This document shows, in pieces, positions 4,281 to 8,561 of a stretch of DNA of 64,000 nt (position 1 is its first letter; each line of letters starts with the position of its first letter). The position numbers were made by a program, and so were the translations under genes. The stretch covers positions 1,364,001 through 1,428,000 of the forward strand of contig NZ_CP100762.1 of assembly GCF_024296665.1 (NCBI RefSeq), read 5' to 3'. Under the pieces are notes generated by a model, which saw only the letters and a program-made list of their open reading frames with translations, was not told where the DNA came from and ran no database searches. The DNA is from Salinilacihabitans rarus (GTDB lineage: Archaea > Halobacteriota > Halobacteria > Halobacteriales > Natrialbaceae).

Positions 4281-4679
4281 CTACGACCCGTCGTCCGCCC
4301 CGTCGATCCCGGCGAGGATCGGTTCGAGCGCGGACGCGAGTTCCTCGAAGCGCTCCATCGACATGTCGTCGGTCGTCACCCAGACGCCGCGGCGGTCGTG
4401 GACGACCCGCGTCAGGTAGCCGTACTCGAACATCCGGACCGTCGCCCGGTACGCTCCCAGTTGGGAGTTCCGGTAGGCGTTCTGGGCGTCGAAGCCCGCC
4501 CGCTCTTGTGCCGCGAAGCCGACGAGGTCGGCCGACCGTTCGAGGTCCGACCGGAGGTACAGCTGTTCGACGGCGTCGTCGGTGAAGTACGTGATGCTCC
4601 GGAGTTCGTCGCCGACGGCCGTCCGGGCCGCGCTCCGCAGCGCGTCCCCGGCCTCGGGCGTGAGGGGCCTGCCGTCCAT
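4281..4679 (-). CDS. Small conserved haloarchaeal protein of unknown function
   Basis: 132 residues starting MDGRPLTPEAGDALRSAART. The open frame extends further upstream, but that extension is Arg/Ser-rich and overlaps the divergent HAD gene, so ATG 4679 is preferred. It is soluble, with no membrane segment or signal peptide. It is rich in aromatic and charged residues (ITYFTDDAVEQLYLRSDLE, MFEYGYLTRVVHDRRGVWVTTDDM). The pattern 'ADLVGFAAQERAGFDAQNAYRNSQLGAYRATVRMF' split over two helices suggests a helical core. I recall similar short proteins in haloarchaea but no function. It lies in a 100-bp divergent arrangement with the HAD gene. Confidence 0.65.
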   Translation of the reverse strand: MDGRPLTPEAGDALRSAARTAVGDELRSITYFTDDAVEQLYLRSDLERSADLVGFAAQERAGFDAQNAYRNSQLGAYRATVRMFEYGYLTRVVHDRRGVWVTTDDMSMERFEELASALEPILAGIDGADDGS

Positions 4680-4779
4680 GCCAGCGCGTACCACGGCGGT
4701 GCCCAAGACCGTAGGGGTGGTTCGCGGACGGCCACGCTTTTGGTCGCCGCGTGCGAGAGTCCGGCCGAGACGATCGACC

Positions 4780-5535
4780 GTGACGGACGACGAACCCGCA
4801 GACGAACGCGCGCGAGGGGTCGACGGTGCCGCGGCCACACCCCCCGACGGCTGGACGGCGGTCTTCTGGGACGTCGGCGGGGTGATCCTCGACCTCGACT
4901 CCGTCGGCGCGGCCCACCGGCGGTTCGTCGAGCGCCTCGTCGCGGAGCGCGACCTCGACGCGACGGTCGACGACGCCCTCGAGACGTGGCGCCGGACCGT
5001 CGGCGACTACTTCCGCGCCCGCGACGGCACCGAGTTCCGCCCCGCCCGCGAGGGGTACGCGCGAGGCGTCGCCGCCGTCGCCGGGCGCGAGGTTCCCGCC
5101 GCGGAGTGGCGCCCCCTGTTCGAGCGGGTCGCCGCCGAGGCGATCGAACCGGTCCCCGGCGCGGTCGAGGCGGTCGAGCGCCTCGCCGCGCGTGACCTCC
5201 ACGTCGGCGTCGTCAGCGACGTCGACGCCGACGAGGGCCGGCGCATCCTGGAGACGTTCGGCGTCCGCGAGGCGTTCGACTCGATCACCACCTCCGAGGA
5301 GGTCGGCCGCACGAAACCCGACCCCGCGATGTTCGAGACGGCGCTCGACCGCGCGGGCGTCGCCCCCGGGCGGTCGCTGATGGTCGGCGACCGCTACGAA
5401 CACGACGCGGCCGGCGCCGCCGCCCTGGGGATGCGGACGGCGACGCTGGGCGACGAGGACGGCCCCGCCGTCGACTACCGACTCGACTCGCCGCTGGAGG
5501 TACTCGAAATCGTCGACGGCGCGTCGGACGCGTGA
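4780..5535 (+). CDS. HAD superfamily hydrolase (HAD-IA, haloacid dehalogenase/phosphatase type)
   Basis: 251 residues with a GTG start at 4780. HAD motif I is WDVGGVILDLD (nucleophile Asp, with Gly at the +2 place usually held by the acid/base Asp). Motif II is VVSDVDADE, motif III lysine is RTKPDPAMFE, and motif IV is MVGDRYEHDAAGA. The DVGGV form of motif I is shared with the epoxide-hydrolase N-domain/ACAD10 HAD type. A helical cap lies between about 45 and 110. Its neighbours are an acyl-CoA dehydrogenase and an APH-type kinase, the same three domains found fused in vertebrate ACAD10. A role as phosphatase on a phosphorylated hydroxy-acid intermediate is inference. Confidence 0.85.
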   Translation: MTDDEPADERARGVDGAAATPPDGWTAVFWDVGGVILDLDSVGAAHRRFVERLVAERDLDATVDDALETWRRTVGDYFRARDGTEFRPAREGYARGVAAVAGREVPAAEWRPLFERVAAEAIEPVPGAVEAVERLAARDLHVGVVSDVDADEGRRILETFGVREAFDSITTSEEVGRTKPDPAMFETALDRAGVAPGRSLMVGDRYEHDAAGAAALGMRTATLGDEDGPAVDYRLDSPLEVLEIVDGASDA

Positions 5536-5626
5536 CGTCGCCCGCGAGGGCTACGCCGGGCGGCGGTCGTCCTCCGGCCGACGTCGCCGTCGACCCGCGC
5601 CCGGAGGTGGCGCTTCTTCCGCGCCG

Positions 5627-6841
5627 TTACTCGCGGAAGCGCAGCAGGCTCTCGACCTCGCGCTCGTCGACCTCGTCGAAGGCGTCGCGGGCGATCACCC
5701 GCCGGTGGACCTCGTCGGCGCCGTCGACGATGCGGAACGAGCGGACGTCCTCGTAGAAGTCGGCGACGGGCAGGTCCTTCCCGATGCCGTTACCGCCGCA
5801 GATCTGGACCGCGAGGTCGACCGCCTCCTGAGTGGCGTTCGCGGTGAACACCTTGCACATCGAGACGGGGACCCGCGCCTCCTCGCCCGCGGCGAGGCGG
5901 TCGGCGGCGTCGCGGACCATCGTCCGCGCGGCGTGGAGTCTCGTCTCGGCGTCGGCGACCTCGTGTCTGAGCGCCTGTTTCTCCGCCAGCGGATCGCCGA
6001 AGGCGTCGCGCTCGCTCGCGTAGGCCTTCGCGACGTCGAGCGCCCGCGTCGCCATCCCGGTAAAGCGCATGCAGTGGGTCAACCGCGCGGGGCCGAGGCG
6101 CTTCTGGGCGACGGCGAACCCCTGGTTCAGCCCGCCGAGCAGGTTCTCCTCGGGGACGCGAACGCCGTCGTAGCGGATCTCGGCGTGGCTCGACCCCGTC
6201 ACGTTCCCCCCGAGGTGTTCGACGTCGCGGACGACCTCGACGCCGTCGGCGTCCGCGGGGACGAGGAAGATCGAACACCCGCGGTAGGGGTGGACGTCGG
6301 GGTCGGTGCGGGCCATCACCAGCAGGAGGTCCGCCTCCGCGCCGTTGGTCGTCCACCACTTGTGGCCGTCGATCACCCACTCGTCGCCGTCGCGCTCGGC
6401 GGTGGTCCGGATCATCTTCGGGTCCGACCCCGCGCCGGGGGTGGGTTCGGTCATCGAGAAGCCGGAGGTGATCTCGCCGGCGACGAGCGGACGGAGCCAC
6501 TCGTCTTTCTGCTCGTCGGTGCCGACGAGTTCGATCGTGTGCATGTTCCCCTCGTCGGGGGCGGCGATCCGCATCGCGAGCGGCGCGAGGTAGCACCGCC
6601 CGGCCTCCTCGAACGCCGGGAGGACGTCCCGGAGGTCGAGGCCGAGGCCGCCGTACTCCGCCTCGATCTGCGGGGCGTAGATCCCGCGCTCGCGGGCCTC
6701 CTCGCGCAGTCGCTCGACCGTCTCGCCCGAGACGGGGCCGTCGCCGACGACCTCCCGCTCAGCCGGAATCGCCTCCTCTTCGACGAACGCCCGAACGTCC
6801 GCCGCCAGTTCCCGTGCTCGCTCGCCGTCGTCGTACTCCAT
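5627..6841 (-). CDS. Acyl-CoA dehydrogenase, ACAD10/11- or LvaC-like type
   Basis: 404 residues, normal length. It is an FAD-dependent acyl-CoA dehydrogenase: substrate/FAD strand FSMTEPTPGAGSDPKMIRTTAERDGDEWVIDGHKWWTTNG, FAD-binding ARLTHCMRFTGMATRALDVA region, and QICGGNGIGKDLPVADFYEDVRSF near the end. Where medium-chain dehydrogenases have the catalytic Glu in YEGT, this one reads VDGADEVHRR (Asp near residue 373). From memory, ACAD10/ACAD11 and LvaC, which act on 4-hydroxyacyl-CoA derivatives, have a DGPDEVH block here. The divergent gene is an APH-family kinase, as in those pathways. ATG 6841 is preferred over 6859 because the TATA-like TTTTACTTTA lies about 25-30 nt upstream, giving a leaderless transcript. 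Confidence 0.9.
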   Translation of the reverse strand: MEYDDGERARELAADVRAFVEEEAIPAEREVVGDGPVSGETVERLREEARERGIYAPQIEAEYGGLGLDLRDVLPAFEEAGRCYLAPLAMRIAAPDEGNMHTIELVGTDEQKDEWLRPLVAGEITSGFSMTEPTPGAGSDPKMIRTTAERDGDEWVIDGHKWWTTNGAEADLLLVMARTDPDVHPYRGCSIFLVPADADGVEVVRDVEHLGGNVTGSSHAEIRYDGVRVPEENLLGGLNQGFAVAQKRLGPARLTHCMRFTGMATRALDVAKAYASERDAFGDPLAEKQALRHEVADAETRLHAARTMVRDAADRLAAGEEARVPVSMCKVFTANATQEAVDLAVQICGGNGIGKDLPVADFYEDVRSFRIVDGADEVHRRVIARDAFDEVDEREVESLLRFRE

Positions 6842-6859
6842 GGTCGACCTACACAACAA

Positions 6860-6896
6860 TGTAAAGTAAAAGTATGCCCGAAGCTATTTTTGGAAG
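6860..6896. promoter_or_regulatory. Divergent promoter region between the acyl-CoA dehydrogenase and APH kinase genes
   Basis: This AT-rich stretch sits in a very GC-rich background. On the minus strand TTTTACTTTA lies about 25-30 nt before the acyl-CoA dehydrogenase ATG. On the plus strand CTATTTTTGG lies about 45 nt before the kinase ATG. The close spacing would let one factor, perhaps the Lrp-like regulator encoded at 8043-8561, control both genes; that link is inference. Confidence 0.5.
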
Positions 6897-6935
6897 GAAC
6901 GCGTCGGGACGAGCGGACCGCGCGATCGATCCACC

Positions 6936-8030
6936 ATGAGCGAGGACTACTACGACCGGCTCGTCGACGAGGAGGCGCTCGCGGCGTACCTCGAGGCCCA
7001 CCTCGGACCGGCCGACGCCTACGACGTGGAACACCACCAGCAGGGCTTCTCGAACGAGACGCTGTTCGTCACCTGGGGCGAGCGCGACCTCGTCCTCCGG
7101 CGGCCGCCGCCGGGCGAGACCGCCGAGACCGCCCACGACGTCCTCCGGGAGTACGAGGTGACGGACACGCTCGTCGACACCGACGTCCCCGTGCCGGAGC
7201 CGCTTCTCGCCTGCGACGACGGCGACGTGATCGGCAGCGACTTCTACGTGATGGAACGGCTCGAGGGCGACGTCCTCCGGTGGTCCGAACCCGACTGGCT
7301 CGAAGACCCCGCCCGCCGCGAGCGCGTCGGCGAGGCGTTCGTCGACGGACTGGCGGCGATCCACGGGGTCGACCACGAGGCGGTCGGTCTCGGCGAGTTC
7401 GGCCGCCCGGCGGGCTACACCCGCCGGCAGGTCGACCGCTGGGGGAAGCAACTCGCGTGGGCGTTCGAGCGCACCGCCGACGAGCGCGAGGTGCCGACCC
7501 TCGACGAGGTCGGCGCGTGGCTCGACGAGCACTGCCCGGAGGAACACCCCCGCGCGCTCGTCCACGGCGACTACAAACTCGACAACGTGATGTTCGCGCC
7601 GCCGGGGACCGACCGGACCGGCGCCGAGACCGAACGCGACCGCCCGGAACTGGTCGGCGTCTTCGACTGGGAGATGAGCACCCTCGGCGACCCGCGGGCC
7701 GACCTCGGCTGGACGCTCGCCTACTGGCGCGACCCCGGCGACCCCGACCCCGCGGTGCCGGAGTTGACGCCGACGTTCATGGAGGCCGAGGGCTACCCCA
7801 CCCGCCGCGACCTCGTCGACCGCTGGGAGGCCGAAACCGGCCTCGCGTTCGAACACGAGCGCTTCTACCGGACGCTCGCGGTCTACAAACTGGCGGCGCT
7901 CGGGGAGATGTTCTTCCGGCGCCACCTGGAGGGCAACGCGGACAACCCGATGTACCCGCTGATGGAAGAGCGCGTCCCCGCGATGGCCGAGCGGGCCGAG
8001 CGCATCGTCGACGGCGGGGAGCCGCTGTGA
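6936..8030 (+). CDS. APH-family phosphotransferase (ACAD10/11- or LvaA-like kinase)
   Basis: 364 residues. The protein kinase-like aminoglycoside phosphotransferase fold is clear: a GFSNETLFVTW nucleotide loop at about 37-47, LVLRRPP with the conserved basic residues, the Brenner catalytic motif HGDYKLDN at 210-217, and the metal-binding FDWEMSTLGDPRADLGW with Asp244. This DWE-(M)-STLGDP form is the one found in ACAD10/ACAD11 and related kinases that phosphorylate 4-hydroxyacyl-CoA, not in antibiotic-resistance enzymes. Partner genes are the divergent acyl-CoA dehydrogenase and, beyond it, the HAD hydrolase. The kinase family is certain; the substrate is inferred from context. Confidence 0.88.
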   Translation: MSEDYYDRLVDEEALAAYLEAHLGPADAYDVEHHQQGFSNETLFVTWGERDLVLRRPPPGETAETAHDVLREYEVTDTLVDTDVPVPEPLLACDDGDVIGSDFYVMERLEGDVLRWSEPDWLEDPARRERVGEAFVDGLAAIHGVDHEAVGLGEFGRPAGYTRRQVDRWGKQLAWAFERTADEREVPTLDEVGAWLDEHCPEEHPRALVHGDYKLDNVMFAPPGTDRTGAETERDRPELVGVFDWEMSTLGDPRADLGWTLAYWRDPGDPDPAVPELTPTFMEAEGYPTRRDLVDRWEAETGLAFEHERFYRTLAVYKLAALGEMFFRRHLEGNADNPMYPLMEERVPAMAERAERIVDGGEPL

Positions 8031-8042
8031 AGCCGGCGGGGT

Positions 8043-8561
8043 TCAGTCGCCGTCTTCGAGCAGGGCCTCGAAGACGCTCGGGTCGGTCCGGAACTTGAGC
8101 ACGTTGTGGACCGCCGAGTTGCGGACGTTCGCGACCACCTCCCCGTGTTCCTTGTAGAACTCGTGGATCCACCGCGAGGACGCCTCGGCGTCGCGGAACA
8201 TCATCACCGTCTTCCACTGGTACTCGCCGTCCGAGAGGAAGAAAAAGAGCGTGTGCTCGTCCTCGCGGACGTGCTCCATCGCCTCGCGCCAGCCGTCGGC
8301 GAACCCCGAGGGGTCGAACTTGAACTCGAACAGCGCGAAGACGTAGTAGGCCTCGTTCGGAACGATCGCCTCCCGGAAGACGCCCTCCTCGCGCATCCGG
8401 CGGATCGACTCGCTGACGGTGACGTGTGAGACGTCGATGTCGTACTCCGCGGCGAGGACGTCGGTCAACTCCCGCGAGGACAGTTGCGGGTCGGCCGCGA
8501 GTTCGGTCAGGATCGCGACGTCCCGCTCCGAGAACTCCCAGTCCGGCGCGTCGTCGGCCAT
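8043..8561 (-). CDS. Lrp/AsnC-like winged-helix transcriptional regulator
   Basis: 172 residues. The N-terminal winged helix (about 12-70) contains DVAILTELAADPQLSSRELTDVLA and ISHVTVSE-like recognition (VSHVTVSESIRRMREEGV). The C-terminal part (about 75-165) is rich in aromatic residues (YYVFALFEFKF, HTLFFFLSDGEYQWKTVMMF) and is probably a ligand or dimer domain, though not a classical AsnC/RAM sequence. It converges with the kinase gene 12 bp away, so it may regulate the acyl-CoA dehydrogenase/kinase pair. That target is a guess from position. Confidence 0.8.
   Translation of the reverse strand: MADDAPDWEFSERDVAILTELAADPQLSSRELTDVLAAEYDIDVSHVTVSESIRRMREEGVFREAIVPNEAYYVFALFEFKFDPSGFADGWREAMEHVREDEHTLFFFLSDGEYQWKTVMMFRDAEASSRWIHEFYKEHGEVVANVRNSAVHNVLKFRTDPSVFEALLEDGD

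Follow-up and report, generated by a model that had tools for sequence, protein, structure and literature searches.

A locus within the first 8.6 kb of a 64,000-nucleotide stretch of the Salinilacihabitans rarus genome (the window; contig NZ_CP100762.1, positions 1,364,001 to 1,428,000) very probably encodes a split haloarchaeal 4-hydroxyacyl-coenzyme A (CoA) kinase and phosphoacyl-CoA rearrangement system, a salvage route that would feed beta-oxidation. Homology, diagnostic residues, strict co-occurrence and gene context lead us to this reading, in which both chemistry and substrate are deduced from sequence. The four genes of interest lie on alternating strands (+, -, +, -) and encode a HAD-family protein, an acyl-CoA dehydrogenase (ACAD), an APH-fold kinase and a winged helix-turn-helix (HTH) protein. 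Since the strands of the first three alternate, these do not form one operon. The motifs that the original prediction had claimed for the HAD, dehydrogenase and kinase were all found, and the open frames that carry them match Pfam models strongly. The wide conservation of the dehydrogenase-kinase pair (123/242 Halobacteria) shows that the frames are not chance. Its central proposal, that kinase and dehydrogenase are of the ACAD10/11 and LvaA/LvaC kind, is borne out by trees and by diagnostic active-site residues.

The dehydrogenase occupies 5627..6841 on the minus strand (the open reading frame from TTG spans 5627-6859, and the ATG at 6841 was chosen as start). Its Pfam (PF00441, 3.2e-45; PF02770; PF02771) and NCBIfam matches are all generic ACAD models, as would be expected if it were an ordinary chain-length ACAD of beta-oxidation with an unrelated kinase for a neighbor, an explanation that other evidence makes very improbable. 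Among solved structures the best scores come from 4hr3 (244 bits) and from ACAD11 of mouse and human (234-240 bits), with ordinary ACADs at 188 bits or less. In a tree of 44 rows, a single clade with 100/100 support on a stem of 1.14 unites the haloarchaeal ACADs with LvaC and ACAD11; the paralogues from the same genome, rat short-chain ACAD (SCAD) and 7w0j all fall outside it. As had been predicted, then, the dehydrogenase stays apart from ordinary ACADs. Within the clade are three lineages, an LvaC type (97/89), an ACAD10/11 type (92/89) and a haloarchaeal one (100/100).

The active site agrees with this placement. In the available text of PMC12440821, D753 of ACAD11 is the catalytic base, R626, H634 and R637 contact the phosphate and are lacking in conventional ACADs, and R631 is common to all ACADs; the ACAD step is lost when any one of R626, H634 and R637 is disrupted. 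With numbering anchored on the D753N chain 8v3v, the equivalents of all five residues are kept in 37/37 aligned haloarchaeal orthologues, the window's included, and also in LvaC of a genuine lva operon. Only the R631 equivalent is present in the six other near-full-length ACADs of the source genome (a single contig of 3.62 Mb; 31-37% identity), in a Haloferax mediterranei paralogue, in rat SCAD and in 7w0j. A Haladaptatus paralogue (L092) has an Asp in DGTNEVN yet lacks the phosphate contacts. The window protein shows RIVDGADEVHRR where ordinary ACADs have YEGT, placing its presumed Asp base in VDGADEVH, and its helix reads RLGPARLTHCMR. An exact two-part motif expression matches 76 of 80 named ACAD loci; three others differ by one residue in DGADEVH, and the helix expression gave no match in the fourth (L172). 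Tree position and the Asp in DGADEVH, instead of the Glu base of Y-E-G-T, led us to rule out an ordinary chain-length ACAD, against which the retained Arg/His/Arg phosphate site and the strict co-occurrence with the kinase described below also speak. Several genomes of the window's family (L041, L042, L069 and others) hold a second ACAD copy at another place in the genome, about 60-64% identical to the window copy; some of these have a kinase and a CoA ligase close by and perhaps act on another substrate.

The kinase (6936..8030, plus strand; PF01636, 2.5e-44), of ACAD10/11 type and presumed to act on 4-hydroxyacyl-CoA, carries VHGDYKLDN and FDWEMSTLGDP in an open frame. Its closest solved structures are 9o56 (197 bits), 3dxp and the kinase domain of ACAD11. 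The equivalents of ACAD11 catalytic D220 and N225 and substrate-binding R176, with the HGD and DN motifs, are kept in the window and haloarchaeal kinases, a comparison that covers these three residues, the alignment position of ACAD11 R86 being uncertain. The kinase also matches the APH(3') model, though weakly (32.7 bits, cut-off 205), which could be taken to mean an aminoglycoside or other antibiotic kinase in a coincidental neighborhood. The solved relatives and the presence of the kinase in exactly the genomes that bear the ACAD rule this candidate out, and we give it almost no weight.

The kinase tree sets the haloarchaeal system apart from the levulinate (lva) operon of Pseudomonas. The haloarchaeal kinases form a clade (100/100) that joins ACAD10/11-associated kinases of Rhodococcus and Deinococcus and 9o56 at 88/99, the branch of the mouse kinase itself being unresolved. 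LvaA and the kinases of Thermus, Azoarcus and one Azospirillum make up a separate 100/100 group, all accompanied by DUF6285/LvaB. LvaB, identified as DUF6285 by its Pfam match (PF19802), was found neither in the source genome (0/1) nor in the Halobacteria sampled (0/242). The tree and this absence rule out an LvaA-type kinase acting with LvaB. The dehydrogenase is thus LvaC-like but of a separate lineage, and the kinase that goes with it is of the other type, which does without LvaB.

The distribution of the two genes is strikingly concordant. Orthologues were sought in 242 sampled Halobacteria at E-value thresholds of 1e-75 (ACAD), 1e-55 (kinase), 1e-40 (HAD) and 1e-30 (HTH), and were found in 123, 123, 83 and 128 genomes, respectively. 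The ACAD and kinase sets are identical, both genes in 123 genomes and neither in the other 119. Fisher p values for such counts are too strong, since the species are related by descent, but in six or more genera (g2, g3, g26, g27, g30, g38) some genomes have both genes and others have neither. Beyond the window's order the kinase gave no match at E 1e-20: 18 of 196 genomes of the phylum matched, all from the same family or order, in a sample with 33 genomes listed for the class and the other 163 taken by subtraction as other classes.

Physical linkage is looser than co-occurrence. Among the 119 of 123 ACAD genomes with positions among the matches listed, ACAD and kinase lie within 5 kb in 72, and of 74 linked pairs 60 are divergent, 12 are convergent and 2 lie on the same strand. 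A kinase stands in the flank of 51 of the 80 named ACAD loci, within 500 bp in 42 and divergent in 44. A close trio, with the HAD beside a linked pair, is complete in 19 genomes. Conservation of the trio among relatives, as first proposed, thus holds for the pair across Halobacteria (123/242) and is only partial for the three genes as neighbors, which do not form a fixed neighborhood. Gene calls in the relatives derive partly from a composition score, so small or unusual genes may have escaped notice, and errors in some frames are possible. In the window, the pair is separated by an AT-rich intergenic region of 94 bp (6842..6935), in which both promoters presumably lie.

The surroundings of the kinase point toward beta-oxidation. 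In 32 kinase-bearing loci (the window and 31 fetched regions, out of 40 that were hand-picked, mostly around linked pairs), a fusion of 3-hydroxyacyl-CoA dehydrogenase (3HCDH) and enoyl-CoA hydratase lies within 5 kb of 12; some hydratase or 3HCDH is this close in 16/32, and a hydratase, 3HCDH or CoA ligase in 19/32. This proximity is far above background, because genes with a strong 3HCDH_N match number only four across the 3.6 Mb of the source genome. On plasmid pHME132 of H. mediterranei the order is short-chain dehydrogenase/reductase (SDR), HAD, ACAD, APH, FadB, HTH, ACAD and CoA ligase, with the ligase about 3 kb past FadB, a content that resembles the lva operon with beta-oxidation added. 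This FadB is the one 3-hydroxyacyl-CoA dehydrogenase in a listed but incomplete gene table of pHME132, and HFX_4xxx genes are taken to lie on the plasmid; that it is HFX_4016 is a guess, which we do not use as evidence. HFX_4016 is reported to be raised on carbon limitation (PMC4823750). H. mediterranei grew on levulinic acid in mineral salt medium at 0.097 per h with 0.6 g/L, according to the available text of PMC12455835; the main text of that paper does not contain the word 'gene', and there the growth is not linked to the ACAD, APH or HAD.

What the system acts on is harder to say. The same phosphorylate-then-eliminate chemistry could serve another hydroxyacyl-CoA, for example 4-hydroxybutyryl-CoA or long or branched 4-hydroxyacyl-CoA, with levulinate handled by another route. 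We regard this as a real possibility, although we lean against it. ACAD10 and ACAD11 accept several chain lengths and their physiological substrates may differ, as the available part of PMC11342911 describes; the haloarchaeal ACADs are a separate lineage; and neither an LvaD-like SDR nor a CoA ligase was recognised adjoining the window locus. Against another substrate stand the lva-like complement of H. mediterranei, with an SDR by the trio and a CoA ligase near, and the growth of that organism on levulinate.

That no beta-oxidation gene, CoA ligase or SDR was recognised beside the window locus weighs against our reading of it as a 4-hydroxyacyl-CoA salvage system, and this point does not stand alone. 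To our knowledge, there is no biochemistry for any haloarchaeal member. The window kinase shares only 24% identity with LvaA. ACAD and kinase are more than 5 kb apart in 47 of the 119 genomes with listed positions, and the kinase is missing from the flank in 29 of the 80 named loci, 14 of the 80 loci being short (<12 kb). Neither tree nor tests settle the sister order among the three dehydrogenase lineages: a grouping of haloarchaeal ACADs with ACAD11 has support of 72/72, and approximately unbiased (AU) tests reject neither haloarchaeal plus LvaC (p 0.487) nor LvaC plus ACAD11 (p 0.411). Distant APH proteins (E 1e-34 to 1e-43) occur without an ACAD orthologue in three genomes (G012, G018, G023), so the perfect match of ACAD and kinase is confined to orthologues as our thresholds define them. 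Finally, H. mediterranei also grew on formate in the study of levulinic acid, and the inhibition model did not fit the levulinate data (available text of PMC12455835); a background carbon source is therefore possible, and the levulinate growth is suggestive only. As a separate observation, these distant APH proteins, at 41-42% identity, make up a second group confined to a single haloarchaeal genus (G003, G012, G018 and G023), and three of these genomes lack the ACAD orthologue.

If the salvage reading is right, three steps would follow one another. The APH-fold kinase would use ATP to phosphorylate the 4-hydroxyl of a 4-hydroxyacyl-CoA, acting as a single subunit of ACAD10/11 type with no LvaB. 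The flavin adenine dinucleotide (FAD)-dependent dehydrogenase would then convert the 4-phosphoacyl-CoA to 2-enoyl-CoA, with an Asp as base, expulsion of phosphate and no net oxidation, a step that we propose because the R-R-H-R-D site is conserved. A hydratase and a 3-hydroxyacyl-CoA dehydrogenase would take the 2-enoyl-CoA on through beta-oxidation, as proposed on account of the neighboring genes. Likely substrates would be short 4-hydroxy acids such as 4-hydroxyvalerate, which could arise from levulinate.

The HAD protein probably has an accessory place in this scheme. It is encoded at 4780..5535 on the plus strand and is of HAD-IA type (PF00702, 9.5e-24); its frame, from GTG at 4780, reads FWDVGGVILDLD. 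The closest NCBIfam model is TIGR02253, below its cut-off. We take the HAD domain of ACAD10 to belong to TIGR02247; against this model the window protein scores 39.4 bits and the H. mediterranei HAD 44.6 bits, under the cut-off of 125.4, which rules out membership of ACAD10's HAD family. The idea that ACAD10's three domains occur here as separate genes is thus upheld for the dehydrogenase and kinase, and not for the HAD. Motif I reads D-V-G-G, with the second Asp of DxD replaced by Gly in 20/20 sequences (19 and the window), the Lys and GDRY motifs being kept. In ACAD10's HAD, too, the first Asp of DxD is the only one retained; according to the available text of PMC11342911, this domain shows negligible phosphatase activity and acts as a restraint on the kinase.

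Is the HAD part of the system at all? It might be a phosphatase of general metabolism that hitch-hikes at the locus: 40 of the 123 genomes that have the pair lack it, it lies more than 5 kb from both partners in 28 of the 83 that have it, and it is not of the ACAD10 family. We think this unlikely. The HAD is restricted to genomes with the pair, in 83 of 123 of them and in 0 of the 119 without it, and in 54 of the 83 it is no more than 5 kb away from the kinase, in every case sharing its strand. Moreover, a phosphatase partner recurs elsewhere, the HAD being fused in ACAD10 (PMC11342911, available text) and a histidine phosphatase adjoining the kinase, or the DUF6285 gene after it, in 6 of the 11 bacterial ACAD-APH regions whose APH is annotated (L080, L081, L082, L085, L087, L088). 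By analogy, this recurring phosphatase-like partner may reflect a recurring need to handle a phosphorylated intermediate. We therefore retain the HAD as a probable kinase accessory, a role first proposed for it and favored by its missing second Asp and its nesting among pair-bearing genomes, if not by its family. It may clear or recycle stalled 4-phospho intermediates, or may restrain the kinase as ACAD10's HAD does.

Comparison with known systems brings out what is shared and what is not. The haloarchaeal proteins resemble mammalian ACAD10 and ACAD11 in ACAD clade, Asp/Arg/His/Arg site and LvaB-free kinase type (PMC12440821 and PMC11342911, available text), and ACAD10 in having a HAD partner in which only the first of the two DxD aspartates remains. 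They differ in being separate, unfused proteins encoded on opposite strands, in their own ACAD lineage and in a HAD of a different family. With the Pseudomonas lva operon (LvaA-LvaB-LvaC-LvaD-LvaE) they share the kinase-ACAD pair and, near the H. mediterranei trio, an SDR and a CoA ligase; the window ACAD is 44% identical over 381 residues to LvaC of the operon on pPA272. Unlike that operon, the haloarchaea have no LvaB, another kinase type, an additional HAD, a divergent pair and, often, adjacent 3HCDH or hydratase genes. The lva operon of Pseudomonas aeruginosa plasmid pPA272 (L079, about 404536-413866) is complete, with a PrpR-like regulator, LvaA, LvaB, LvaC, LvaD, LvaE, a DUF485 protein and a symporter. 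Bacterial pairs on plasmids of Thermus, Azospirillum, Deinococcus and Sphingobium are adjacent too, often with SDR, MaoC or 3HCDH genes, and several hold a histidine phosphatase beside the kinase where haloarchaea hold the HAD. It is possible, if doubtful, that the haloarchaeal pathway is a third, independently assembled one, in which an LvaB-free kinase of ACAD10/11 type and a separate ACAD lineage were joined by a HAD recruited in parallel to the ACAD10 HAD and the bacterial histidine phosphatase, to clear or restrain the phosphorylated intermediate.

The fourth gene (8043..8561, minus strand) encodes a winged-HTH, Lrp-like protein that is a possible regulator, loosely associated with the system. 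It scores 19.4 bits against PF13412 (HTH_24), below the cut-off of 21.9, and no NCBIfam or other Pfam model, including the AsnC ligand domain, matched it above cut-off. Of the 123 pair-bearing genomes 102 have it, but so do 26 of the 119 without the pair, and its linkage figure, 12 of 32 loci, covers the kinase-bearing loci. On the minus strand, a frame for a DUF7522 protein (window 4284-4838; 8.4e-49) overlaps with the beginning of the plus-strand HAD frame. Elsewhere in the genome, one of the six ordinary ACAD paralogues (G000:C1:1092759-1093865; L097) is interrupted by a single in-frame TGA, so that it is perhaps a pseudogene or contains a sequencing error.

The chemistry and the enzyme family are already known in bacteria and mammals, and the haloarchaeal split version is new relative to these. 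The literature searched, which left most subscription papers out of its reach, showed no archaeal description of this gene set, and the word 'archaea' does not appear in the available text of PMC12440821 or PMC11342911. Functions for the mammalian enzymes were assigned as recently as 2024-2025. A split archaeal version, with single genes for each activity, makes the puzzling role of ACAD10's HAD testable gene by gene. The residue signature should help to annotate many proteins labelled just 'acyl-CoA dehydrogenase' or 'phosphotransferase'.

In summary, the haloarchaeal genes are candidates for levulinate use, and for levulinate-fed production of poly(3-hydroxybutyrate-co-3-hydroxyvalerate) (PHBV), in the production organism Haloferax mediterranei. 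Our reading can be tested in that same organism, whose growth on levulinic acid is reported in the available text of PMC12455835. Moreover, if the parallel recruitment of phosphatase-like partners is true, keeping a toxic or trapping 4-phosphoacyl intermediate in check would be a general need, met by unrelated proteins in three lineages.

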